NCBI GenBank assembly: GCA_025451845.1
Contig: JANWJS010000037.1
Location: 124,001-188,000 of the forward strand
Source of the DNA: Steroidobacteraceae bacterium
Lineage (GTDB): Bacteria; Pseudomonadota; Gammaproteobacteria; Steroidobacterales; Steroidobacteraceae
DNA: 64,000 nt
Reading direction: 5' to 3'
In this document: positions 43,727 through 48,097 of the stretch, piece after piece
How positions within the stretch are numbered: the first letter of the stretch is position 1
Layout of the letters: every line of letters begins with the position of its first letter
Made by a program: the position numbers and the translations under genes
Notes under the pieces: generated by a model
The model's database searches: none
Seen by the model: only the letters and a program-made list of their open reading frames with translations
Told to the model about the DNA's origin: nothing

Positions 43727-44803
43727 TTATTCGCTGATCGCAACACCGCTGAAAGCGGCAACACCGATCGGGCTCGAAACGGCTTTCGGCGTCAGATCAC
43801 CGTACCGATCGATCGCAAACACGGACACGTATCCGCTGCCATTCGCGGAGTAGATGACGGCCAGCCATTTCCGGTCTTGCGAGACCGTGATGTCGGTGGG
43901 TGCCCCGGGCAGCGGCACCGACTTGTAGAAGACCCCCCCCTTGGCGTCGCTGAAGAATATGGAGATGGCGTGTCCGGGGCTGTTGCCCGTGTACCAGGCG
44001 CTGCCGGGCCCCTTTGCCACCCAGCACGGCGCATTCGTGGGGTAGGACGGCGTCGGCCCGACGATCGGATACACGTTACGCTGCGCATCGACGATCGCAA
44101 AGCTGTCGGGGCTGTGGGCCGGCGTGAATCCGAGCACATCACCCCAGAATGCCGCGCCGAGCGGGGTATTGTTGGCGTCGGCCGGAAGCGCGACCGGAGC
44201 GACGGAGCCGCTCAGCGCACCCCAGCCTGTCAGACCGACCTGCTCGACTGACCCTGAGGTGAACGTGACGGCGCCCCACGTCCTTCCCACTGCGACCTGG
44301 GCGGCCGATCCATCGGGAAGATGTACGACTGCGCCGTCCAGCGCCCCCGACGGCCAGGAATGGCTCTCCACGCAGTTCGTGCCTGCGACGAAGAGCTGGT
44401 CACGGGTGAGCGCCACCGAGTCAGGCTTCAAACAGCCGGATGCGAGCTTGATGTGTCCCCTGACCTGAACGAAGTCCTCCTCCCGCACGAGCTCGCTGAC
44501 ACTGCCCGATCCGTAATTCGCCACGGCGCCGAACTCGCCCTTCATTTGCAGAATGCCGGCGTTACCGCTCGCGCCACCCCGACCGCCCGTGGGCAGACTC
44601 TGCACCAGGGAGAGCGCGGGCACGGACCCGGTTTCCAACTGATACACCAGCACTTGATTGCTCCCCGGATCATTCGTGCTCGTGAGTACGAGAACGCCGC
44701 GATCGGGCTCTGCGGCTGCGGCGAGACTCGCCGTGAGCAGCGAGGCGGCGAGCGTTACACCGCAGCGCCAAGTGAGCGATCGGGAGAGGTTTCGCAATTT
44801 CAT
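43727..44803 (-). CDS. secreted beta-propeller-like hypothetical protein
   Basis: Start MKLRNLSRSLTWRCGVTLAASLLTASLAAAAEP (signal peptide); repeated WGAVTF/YTGNSPGHAISIFF/DITVSQDRKWLAVIYSANGSGYVSVFAID blades. Confidence 0.6.
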   Translation of the reverse strand: MKLRNLSRSLTWRCGVTLAASLLTASLAAAAEPDRGVLVLTSTNDPGSNQVLVYQLETGSVPALSLVQSLPTGGRGGASGNAGILQMKGEFGAVANYGSGSVSELVREEDFVQVRGHIKLASGCLKPDSVALTRDQLFVAGTNCVESHSWPSGALDGAVVHLPDGSAAQVAVGRTWGAVTFTSGSVEQVGLTGWGALSGSVAPVALPADANNTPLGAAFWGDVLGFTPAHSPDSFAIVDAQRNVYPIVGPTPSYPTNAPCWVAKGPGSAWYTGNSPGHAISIFFSDAKGGVFYKSVPLPGAPTDITVSQDRKWLAVIYSANGSGYVSVFAIDRYGDLTPKAVSSPIGVAAFSGVAISE

Positions 44804-44844
44804 GGTCGTCTCCGTTCTTGAGGTTCGTTGGGGGAGGTCGGACG

Positions 44845-45031
44845 TCAATCGATAGGGGGCCGCGCAGCCCGCGGCTCCTTGCCCTTTGCCCGCAGCAGAA
44901 TCGAATCGAGCGCGAAGGGACCTGTGCCTCCGAGTGCGAGCGCGGCGAGACAGGCCAAATAGAGCAGGTCCGTCTCGGGCGCGCCGCAGGAATGCGGCGG
45001 GGCGCGTGCAGAGCTCGAGCAGCATATCCAT
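44845..45031 (-). pseudogene. DoxX-family remnant (C-terminal TM segment only)
   Basis: ETDLLYLACLAALALGGTGPFALDSILLRAKG resembles DoxX C-termini; remainder of the ~130-aa protein absent. Confidence 0.4.
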
Positions 45032-45041
45032 GCCGGGTTAC

Positions 45042-45067
45042 TTCGCACCCCGCCGGGAGGTGTTACA
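45042..45067 (-). promoter_or_regulatory. candidate ECF-sigma promoter TGTAAC-N16-CGAA
   Basis: Minus-strand TGTAAC ACCTCCCGGCGGGGTG CGAA; identical spacing and elements to 46355-46380. Confidence 0.6.
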
Positions 45068-45116
45068 GGCCCATGGATCCTTCCCGGATTGTGGTCTGCG
45101 GATCGCCCGCGTTAAA

Positions 45117-45707
45117 ATGAGGCGGCTCGCGCGCCGCGAGCGAGTCGACTCCCAAGTGCCGCAGCAGGATGAGACCGAAGAGCGCCTCCGGCCGCTGATG
45201 ATCCGCAGCCTGGAGGGGGATTCGGGCGCGCACCGGCAGCTCCTCGGCGTCCTCGGTCGGTACCTCAGAGGATACTTCGCCCGTCGCATCGGTACCGGCA
45301 CTGCCGAAGTCGAGGACCTCGTCCAGGAAACGCTCCTTGCAGTGCACTTGAAGCGCGACAGCTACGACCGATCTCTTCCATTCACGCCATGGGCGTATGC
45401 CCTGGCCCGTTACAAGCTGATCGATCATCTGCGCCGCCGCAGCCGGTCGATTCAAGTCCCCCTAGAGGATGCCGGCGCTCTCTTCGCGGCCGATGGTGCC
45501 GAGGAAGGCGCGCTGCGCATCGACCTCGACCGGCTGTTGCAACGTTTGCCCGACCGGCAACGAAGTCTCATCGAAGATGTGAAGCTGCAGGGCCTCTCCG
45601 TCGAGGAGGCTGCCCGGAAGCGCGGTGTGACCGCCGTGTCAGCGCGCGTCATGCTGCATCGAAGTCTCAAATGGCTGAATCAGGTCCTACGCGATGAGAA
45701 CGGCTGA
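45117..45707 (+). CDS. ECF-type RNA polymerase sigma factor
   Basis: Start MRRLARRERVDS; EVEDLVQETLLAVHLKRDSYDRSLPFTPWAYALARYKLIDHLRRR; LPDRQRSLIEDVKLQGLSVEEAARKRGVTAVSARVMLHRSLKWL. Confidence 0.9.
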   Translation: MRRLARRERVDSQVPQQDETEERLRPLMIRSLEGDSGAHRQLLGVLGRYLRGYFARRIGTGTAEVEDLVQETLLAVHLKRDSYDRSLPFTPWAYALARYKLIDHLRRRSRSIQVPLEDAGALFAADGAEEGALRIDLDRLLQRLPDRQRSLIEDVKLQGLSVEEAARKRGVTAVSARVMLHRSLKWLNQVLRDENG

Positions 45708-46332
45708 CCTCATAGAGCTGCTCGCATGCGATGTGCGGGCGACCCCACCAGGGGTCGTGAACAGAAGGCTGCTGGCGGCTCTGATCGCCGGCGGCGCCGT
45801 TACGTTGGCCATCGTCGCCCTGGGACTGCACTGCCAGCCGCTTCTGGTGGCCGCGCAACAGCCCTGGTTCTGGATGAAGGCCGCCTACACGGGCCTCCTC
45901 ACGCTGGCAGGCGCAGTCCTCGTGAAGCGCTTGTCCGTGCCGGGCGCGCGGGCAGGAGCGGCGCCACGGCTCGCAGCGCTGGTCATCCTGGCCATGCTCG
46001 CCCTGGGGGCGGGTCAGATTCTCTCCGCGACGCCGGGGGCGCGGCTCGCGCTGTGGTTGGGCCACACCTGGAAAGTTTGCTCGCCGCTCATTCTGCTGCT
46101 CGCGCTCCCGATCTACGCCGGCCTGGTCGCGGCCATTCGCAGGCTGGCGCCTACGCGCCCCGCGCTGGCGGGTACCGCGGCGGGTTTCACGGCCGGCACG
46201 CTCGCGGCAACCCTCTATGGCCTACACTGTCCGGAGCAGGCACCCGCTTTCGTGGCCACCTGGTATACGCTTGGAATCGCTGCCGCCACCGCCCTCGGCG
46301 CCATCACGGGGAGGCGCCTGCTGCGCTGGTGA
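45694..46332 (+). CDS. NrsF-like (DUF1109) anti-sigma factor
   Basis: MRTADLIELLACDVRATPPGVVNRRL..., six TM helices, GLHCPEQAPAFVATWYTLGIAAATALGAITGRRLLRW; overlaps sigma gene by 14 bp. Confidence 0.85.
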   Translation: MRTADLIELLACDVRATPPGVVNRRLLAALIAGGAVTLAIVALGLHCQPLLVAAQQPWFWMKAAYTGLLTLAGAVLVKRLSVPGARAGAAPRLAALVILAMLALGAGQILSATPGARLALWLGHTWKVCSPLILLLALPIYAGLVAAIRRLAPTRPALAGTAAGFTAGTLAATLYGLHCPEQAPAFVATWYTLGIAAATALGAITGRRLLRW

Positions 46333-46354
46333 GACGGGTCCTTTTCGCGCCCGG

Positions 46355-46380
46355 TGTAACAGCGCAGCGCTGGCAGCGAA
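46355..46380 (+). promoter_or_regulatory. candidate ECF-sigma promoter TGTAAC-N16-CGAA
   Basis: TGTAAC AGCGCAGCGCTGGCAG CGAA, upstream of the cytochrome b gene. Confidence 0.6.
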
Positions 46381-46395: not shown

Positions 46396-47292
46396 GTGTC
46401 CAGCCCTCTTATGAACGAAGGTGATAAGATGCCGACTCCTTCCGCAGACGCCGTGCCCGAGGCCGAGACAGTAACCCACCGCGCCCGCCCGCGGCGGGAC
46501 GTCATTCATCGCCATGCCTGGCCGGTCCGCCTGACCCATTGGATCAACGCCCTGACGATCTTCATCATGGTCGGCAGCGGGCTCAACATCTTCAACGCGC
46601 ACCCACGACTGTACTGGGGACAGGCGGGAGCCGATTTCGATAAGCCCTTCCTTGCCCTCGGCGCCGTCCGGACGCCCGCGGGCCTGCGGGGTCGCACGAT
46701 CATAGGTCCCCTGAAGTTCGACACCACTGGCATCCTCGGCGTCTCGCAGGAGGACGGCGAGCAGACCACACGCGCCTGGCCTGATTGGGTGACACTCCCC
46801 AGCTACACCGACCTGGCGGATGCGCGTCACTGGCATTTCTTCTTCGCATGGGTCCTGGTCATCAACGGCGCGCTGTACCTGACGTGGAGTATCGTGAGCC
46901 GACACATCCAGCGGGACCTCTGGCCGACCGCGACCGACCTTCGTGCCATTCCGCGCTCCATCATCGATCACCTCAAACTCAAGCATCCCAAGGGCGAGGC
47001 TGCGAAGCGCTACAACGTGCTGCAACGGCTCGCCTATCTGGGGCTGGTGACACTCGCGGCCGGCATGGTTCTCACGGGTCTTTGCATGTCGCCGGGCTTC
47101 GATGCGTTCGCGCCCTGGCTGGTGACGGCACTCGGCGGGCGCCAGACCGCGCGCACCCTGCACTTCCTGTTCGCCGCCGCGATCGTGCTGTTCATCGCGG
47201 TGCACCTCATCGAGGTAGTGCTCGCCGGGCCGCTCAACGAAGTACGCTCGATGATCACCGGCCGCTATGCCGTCCCCGCGGAGCACGAGTGA
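46396..47292 (+). CDS. cytochrome b561-type membrane subunit
   Basis: HRHAWPVRLTHWINALTIFIMVGSGLNIFNAHPRLYWG; HWHFFFAWVLVINGALYLTW. Confidence 0.82.
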   Translation: MSSPLMNEGDKMPTPSADAVPEAETVTHRARPRRDVIHRHAWPVRLTHWINALTIFIMVGSGLNIFNAHPRLYWGQAGADFDKPFLALGAVRTPAGLRGRTIIGPLKFDTTGILGVSQEDGEQTTRAWPDWVTLPSYTDLADARHWHFFFAWVLVINGALYLTWSIVSRHIQRDLWPTATDLRAIPRSIIDHLKLKHPKGEAAKRYNVLQRLAYLGLVTLAAGMVLTGLCMSPGFDAFAPWLVTALGGRQTARTLHFLFAAAIVLFIAVHLIEVVLAGPLNEVRSMITGRYAVPAEHE

Positions 47293-47293
47293 C

Positions 47294-48097
47294 ATGCCGA
47301 TCATCACCCGCCGTCAGGCACTGATCACCAGCCTCGCAGGCAGCGGCCTGCTGCTCACCGGCTGCAGCAAGATTTTCCAGGCCGACTCTCTGACGGAGAG
47401 CGCGAGCTTCCAGCGCGTGCTCGCGGCCGCTCAGGCCTGGACGCGGGCCACGCAGCGCTTCCTGCTCGCGGGCGGCGAGATGGCGCGGGAATACAAGCCG
47501 TCCGATATCTCGCACTATTTCAAGCCCAACGGGACTTACCACCCAGGCGGTGCGGACTATGCACGGCACGTCGACGAAGGGTTTGTGAACTGGCGGTTGC
47601 GGATCGACGGCATGGTCAGGCACCCGTTGTCGTTGAGCGTCGCCGATCTTCGTCGGCTTCCCGCGCGAAGTCAGATCACGCGGCATGACTGCGTCGAGGG
47701 TTGGAGCGCCATCGGCGGCTGGACCGGCGTGCCGCTGGCACTGTTACTCAGAGCAGCGGGCGTGCGCGCCGGGGCGAAGTATGTGGTTTTCTACTGTGCC
47801 GACAACCTGGATGGAGAGGCCGCGAAGGGCGGCGAACAGAGTCCCGGCCAGTACTACGAAAGCGTCGGGCTGGTCGATGCGATGCACCCGCAAACGCTGA
47901 TAGCCTATGACATGAACGGTAAGCCGCTCGATGTGCCCCACGGAGCGCCGCTGCGGCTGCGCGTGGAGCGCCAGCTCGGCTACAAGATGGCGAAGTATGT
48001 GCAGCACATCCAGATCGTCGGCGATTTCCACGCCATCGCCGGCGGCCATGGCGGCTACTGGGAGGACCGCGGCTACGACTGGTATGCCGGAGTCTAG
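47294..48097 (+). CDS. Tat-exported YedY/sulfite-oxidase-family molybdoprotein
   Basis: Start MPIITRRQALITSLAGSGLLLTGC (RR motif and lipobox); RHDCVEGWSAIGGWTGVPLALLL Mo-ligand Cys block. Confidence 0.88.
   Translation: MPIITRRQALITSLAGSGLLLTGCSKIFQADSLTESASFQRVLAAAQAWTRATQRFLLAGGEMAREYKPSDISHYFKPNGTYHPGGADYARHVDEGFVNWRLRIDGMVRHPLSLSVADLRRLPARSQITRHDCVEGWSAIGGWTGVPLALLLRAAGVRAGAKYVVFYCADNLDGEAAKGGEQSPGQYYESVGLVDAMHPQTLIAYDMNGKPLDVPHGAPLRLRVERQLGYKMAKYVQHIQIVGDFHAIAGGHGGYWEDRGYDWYAGV

Follow-up and report, generated by a model that had tools for sequence, protein, structure and literature searches.

Outward-facing TGTAAC-N16-CGAA promoters predicted on either side of an ECF16-type sigma/NrsF pair in a Steroidobacteraceae genome

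The sigma/NrsF pair and its neighbours

The window (the whole 64,000-nt stretch of DNA that was analysed) contains two exact matches to TGTAAC-N16-CGAA, which point outward from a pair of genes for an ECF sigma factor and an NrsF-family anti-sigma factor. The features of the locus are given below, where G185, G193, G197 and G422 denote genomes of the same genus.

43727-44803, minus strand: gene for a secreted, probably beta-propeller protein, 78-84% identical to the G185 and G422 proteins
44845-45031, minus strand: DoxX remnant, with an internal deletion of about 109 codons and a frame change relative to the intact G197 DoxX
45042-45067, minus strand: predicted promoter of ECF16 type, TGTAAC-N16-CGAA, directed towards the DoxX remnant and propeller gene; conserved in G197, G185 and G422
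45089-45118, plus strand: TTGTGG-N18-TAAAAT, tentatively read as a housekeeping promoter for the sigma gene; conserved in five genomes
45156-45707, plus strand: gene for an ECF sigma factor of ECF16 type (Pfam Sigma70_r2/r4_2, NCBIfam), its GTG start assigned from upstream conservation
45694-46332, plus strand: gene for an NrsF-family anti-sigma factor (PF06532, 200 bits) with Cys129 and Cys179
46355-46380, plus strand: predicted ECF16-type promoter TGTAAC-N16-CGAA facing the cytochrome b/molybdoprotein pair; also kept in G193, ahead of the same gene pair
46411-47292, plus strand: gene for a cytochrome b561-type membrane protein (PF01292), starting at 46411 or 46429
47294-48097, plus strand: gene for a YedY/MsrP-like molybdoprotein (PF00174, Oxidored_molyb) with an RR-type, lipobox-like N-terminus (by eye)

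The sigma factor matched PF04542 and PF08281 and consists of regions 2 and 4 only. The adjoining NrsF protein, the sole copy found in the genome, matched PF06532 over its full length, scored 166 bits against the NCBIfam equivalog NF042994, under its strict cut-off of 300, and carried its two cysteines at the same positions as OsrA and AbcS. These matches bore out the ECF sigma/NrsF pair that the initial annotation had placed between the two motifs. The target promoters are of the ECF16 form (T/C)GTAAC-N16/17-CGAA, and on sequence, anti-sigma cysteines, promoter and neighbourhood we class the pair as ECF16 (SigF/NrsF). Before the sigma gene itself an ECF16-type promoter was absent, the best sense match in the window having mismatches at 4 of 10 positions, and the same was true of the four congeners; such a promoter is common but not universal in ECF16, and many of the relatives surveyed carry one. 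All five genomes of the clade share instead the sequence TTGTGG-N18-TA(A/G)AAT at this place. A housekeeping promoter may lie here; the window version, TTGTGG-N18-TAAAAT, did not pass a consensus promoter scan. Scans of the window for tRNA genes and Rfam families gave no matches.

On the plus strand, the promoter lies directly before a PF01292 gene followed by a PF00174 gene, just as the initial annotation had described. The best solved relative of the molybdoprotein was 1XDQ, with which the conserved cysteine of its CVE-WS motif aligned. It belongs to the same fold family (PF00174) as the MsrP catalytic subunit but scored 99 bits against NF003767, where the cut-off is 207, and its partner is a PF01292 cytochrome b561 that failed the test for an MsrQ-type heme membrane protein. 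As the pair is not MsrPQ by the tests applied, methionine sulfoxide chemistry is something that we infer for it; its probable task is to reduce, beyond the cytoplasm, methionine sulfoxide or some oxidised compound like it.

On the minus strand, what is left of DoxX corresponds to residues 1-18 and 128-166 of the intact 168-aa G197 homologue, in two frames, so that about 109 codons have been lost, and the 187 nt of this remnant separate the promoter from the start of the propeller gene. Note that the propeller gene shares its reading frame with the start of the remnant, positions 43727-45031 forming one stop-free open frame of 434 codons. The propeller protein had no family match above threshold, its G185 homologue had a weak Lactonase match only, and a structure model was unusable (pLDDT 37.5). 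In G185 and G422 a peptidase S46 gene (Pfam-tested in L038) lies downstream of the propeller gene, at L038 3186-5345 (minus strand) and L115 3824-5926 (plus strand), and may be co-transcribed with it; none was seen beside the propeller gene in the window.

Frequency, conservation and spacing of the motif

Both matches were confirmed exactly where the initial annotation had reported them, one on each strand and each with a 16-nt spacer, and its judgement that two such matches were improbable by chance held up: in 100 dinucleotide shuffles of the window the mean was 0.04 matches, and no shuffle had two. The genome-wide scan that it had named as a check gave a divided answer. Over the whole genome (4,398,083 b) there were four exact matches, and two for the reversed control pattern; the two matches outside the locus (L001 and L002) fall within coding genes, dioxygenase-like and hemB-like as named from reading of their translations. 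A widened motif, with any base before GTAAC and a spacer of 16 or 17, occurred 22 times, the reversed control 39 times. As the widened motif was not above its reversed control, genome-wide frequency is by itself insufficient for the case, and we rejected the counts as proof of a regulon. On raw counts, then, the motif is no commoner than expected, the outcome that was to have told against the initial claim, but position and gene content support it, and it is these that carry the case for the promoters. We conclude that both sequences are almost certainly promoters of the adjacent stress sigma factor, as judged from sequence.

The locus is present in five genomes of the genus including that of the window, and in the other four the sigma factor is 88-94% identical; a contig search with NrsF found one locus, with gene positions as in G193. 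Since the genomes of close congeners resemble one another, agreement among them does not count as fully independent. When the minus-strand promoter of the window was aligned with those of G197, G185 and G422, all 10 motif columns were invariant, whereas the spacer was invariant in 6 of 16 columns and variable in 10 (Fisher P 0.0026, indicative only, as the sequences are related). What lies behind this promoter differs among the genomes. In G197 it stands about 10 nt before an intact DoxX gene, with the propeller gene absent from the locus; in G185 and G422 it is directly before the propeller gene; in G193 its -35 box has been deleted and the propeller gene is also broken. Together with the window, the congeners present DoxX intact, a DoxX remnant with the propeller gene, the propeller gene alone, and promoter and propeller gene both damaged, a series which suggests a way for a promoter to survive the loss of its gene and come to serve a different one. 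Placement of the minus-strand promoter before the DoxX remnant and propeller gene was right, but the propeller gene seems to have come to this promoter secondarily; in G197 the promoter would drive an intact DoxX.

We counted NGTAAC-Nx-CGAA within 3 kb of the sigma gene at about 70 NrsF-type loci. Spacers of 17 (n=45) and 16 (n=22) predominated, every other spacing from 10 to 24 occurred 0-4 times, and the reversed control was flat at 0-4; duplicate or near-duplicate loci in the sample (L036 and L039, for example) mean that these counts are not independent. A search for NrsF in plasmids by tblastn did not retrieve S. meliloti EcfR7. At G672:C23:19584-20966 two NrsF-family genes stand in tandem, about 100 nt apart. 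The Caulobacter SigF consensus is GTAACC-N16-CGAA (PMC3511200), which the initial annotation had named as similar. The comparison is right as to family but was off by one in register: GTAACC-N16-CGAA is the same as GTAAC-N17-CGAA, and the spacer in the window is shorter than this by one base. In Sinorhizobium meliloti, promoters mapped by their 5' ends and counted in the same way have N17 at SMb20530 and N16 at rpoE7 (PMC6180224). Since N16 has been mapped there and is frequent in the survey, it is ordinary for ECF16, and we rejected it as a new spacing class.

Candidate targets away from the locus

In a wider search we allowed C at the first position and a spacer of 17. One candidate site, C37:27237-27263, lies 61 nt before a gene for an exported MsrA; another, C27:28521-28546, lies 20 nt before a gene for a Tat-signal MsrB, which is followed by one for an exported MsrA (signals in both cases by eye). 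That 2 of the 10 non-local matches precede any of three msr units gave a value of 5e-8 in a rough calculation, or 2e-5 with 60 units counted, for a motif that had in part been widened post hoc. There was no support for conservation of the msrBA site, which is absent from G422, the genome with the sole close msrB orthologue. On sequence, the regulon is probably not just local but extends to these exported MsrA and MsrB/MsrA genes. The local regulon of the initial annotation thus stands as regards outward promoters flanking a SigF/NrsF pair, but its confinement to the locus is improbable.

Similar sites occur before related genes elsewhere in the genus. G185 has one before an MsrP gene that scores above the NCBIfam cut-off and none before its cytochrome b/molybdoprotein paralogues; G193 has one before a partial MsrP gene; in G422 a site with CGTA instead of CGAA precedes the cytochrome b/molybdoprotein pair. 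A CGTA site in G197 and an N17-CGAA site in G186 each precede a Met-rich secreted peptide with the cytochrome b/molybdoprotein genes. The G197 peptide (L222, G197:C202, 1032-1436, minus strand) has 135 aa, 15% methionine and MGHGS/MSHGS-type repeats. In G186 (L116, G186:C75, 3300-9500) the N17 site is 0.8 kb from a 67-68% identical sigma gene, which lies near a probable transposase gene and has no detectable NrsF. At L245 (G197:C143:13511), a glutathione-transferase-family gene has CGTAAC-N17-CGAA 26 nt upstream; this may be a further target or a chance match.

DUF692, DUF2282 and DoxX genes had been expected among the targets of a SigF-like factor. In the window genome the DUF692 (MNIO) maturase, PF05114, had no match, and of the DoxX gene of the bufferin cluster only the deleted, frame-shifted remnant was found in the window. 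The expectation was realised in part in a congener, where the DUF692 gene does lie behind such a promoter: in G422 (L220, G422:C85:12585), TGTAAC-N17-CGTA precedes DUF2282 and a BufB-type maturase gene. This bufferin operon is probably controlled by the same sigma factor.

Proposed switch and comparison with known systems

We consider it very probable that the locus works as a stress switch of the ECF16 (SigF/NrsF) type, with outward promoters, distant sites, and molybdoprotein/cytochrome and exported Msr targets. In this proposal the motif, gene identities, site conservation and co-occurrence with sigma/NrsF come from the present analysis; sigma recognition, the release mechanism and the class of inducer are taken from studied relatives. 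NrsF would hold the sigma factor at the membrane in an inactive state, for which Cys129 would be needed, until Cys179 was acted on by an oxidant or a thiol-binding metal and the sigma factor was released. Once free, it would transcribe from the TGTAAC-N16-CGAA sites on either side of the sigma/NrsF operon, and also from a small number of (T/C)GTAAC-N16/17-CGAA sites farther away. The plus-strand promoter would yield the b cytochrome and the YedY/MsrP-like molybdoprotein, with probable reduction of methionine sulfoxide or a similar compound, and the distant targets would probably contribute exported MsrA and MsrB. The minus-strand promoter, which would drive DoxX in a congener, here has the secreted propeller gene behind it, DoxX having decayed. 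Gene content points to the extracytoplasmic repair of oxidised methionine, and the function is most likely oxidant-induced periplasmic methionine-sulfoxide repair.

Three other readings were weighed. That the two sites are a chance coincidence finds some support in the widened motif, which genome-wide is no commoner than its reverse, but the local expectation of 0.04, conservation in orthologues and the family-wide N16/N17 peak beside NrsF make it exceedingly improbable. A stronger case can be made that only the plus-strand promoter functions, the minus-strand site being a leftover of decayed DoxX and the propeller gene being expressed from elsewhere: DoxX is broken in the window, its 187-nt remnant intervenes, and the G197 promoter serves DoxX at a locus that lacks the propeller gene. 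Yet the site is exact in the window, in G185 and G422 the propeller gene follows it directly, and in G193, where it was lost, the propeller gene is broken too. We regard this reading as unlikely.

The regulon might also be concerned mainly with defence against metals (copper, chromate), like Caulobacter SigF and the bufferins, with methionine repair as a side branch. Caulobacter SigF responds to chromate and cadmium (PMC3511200), G422 has its bufferin operon behind TGTAAC-N17-CGTA, and the G197 DoxX resembles HvfX, below cut-off. As DUF692 is absent from the genome, DoxX is broken, and those candidate targets that remain intact encode redox and Msr enzymes, we judge this improbable, and prefer the oxidant-responsive switch with methionine repair. 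More tentatively, we suggest as a possible though rather doubtful history that this ECF16 clade lost autoregulation, its sigma gene coming under a housekeeping promoter, and that the propeller gene took over the decaying DoxX promoter to become a new exported effector. The proposed switch would place a secreted, probably beta-propeller protein and a cytochrome b/molybdoprotein pair under defined, testable control, and would connect ECF16 with exported methionine sulfoxide reductases in a genus that is represented here by genome assemblies only.

One of the closest parallels is BcrS/AbcS with bcrXQP of Brucella melitensis (PMC8315932), which shares an ECF16 sigma factor, an NrsF-family anti-sigma factor, TGTAAC/GCGAA promoters and an adjacent target operon encoding a YedY/MsrP-type enzyme with its membrane partner; BcrS responds to HOCl, and a Met-rich peptide and MsrQP are under its control. 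Brucella has the Met-rich peptide, an MsrQ-type partner, N17 and an autoregulatory promoter, whereas at the window locus the partner is a PF01292 cytochrome, the spacing is N16, no Met-rich peptide was seen, and there is no ECF16 promoter before the sigma gene. SigF/NrsF of Caulobacter crescentus (PMC3511200) is likewise a sigma-NrsF operon with GTAAC/CGAA promoters and YedY-type and DoxX targets, SigF controlling a YedY-type gene and DUF2282/DUF692 operons; it differs in its GTAAC-N17 spacing, in having DUF2282/DUF692/DUF2063/DoxX operons as main targets, and in the SigF-type promoter at sigF. Bradyrhizobium EcfF/OsrA (PMC3420878) has in common the ECF16 class, the Cys129/Cys179 anti-sigma factor, in which Cys179 is required for the oxidant response and Cys129 for holding the sigma factor, and a small regulon with methionine sulfoxide reductases, which EcfF controls in response to H2O2; but it is autoregulated, its targets are scattered over the genome, and the -10 element of its consensus is degenerate. 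Sinorhizobium meliloti RpoE7/EcfR7 (PMC6180224) combines N16 and N17 promoters in one system and has a divergent target operon, but DUF692/DUF2063 are among its targets and the N16 promoter is that of the sigma gene itself. The same arrangement as in the window recurs in Caballeronia grimmiae and Sphingomonas paeninsulae, which have sigma-DUF1109 pairs with N17 motifs on both strands, next to cytochrome b/molybdoprotein/MXKDX genes or to DUF2282-DoxX and DUF692 (genes according to public-record annotation). We conclude that the locus is a well-supported new example of an already known system, and not a new kind.
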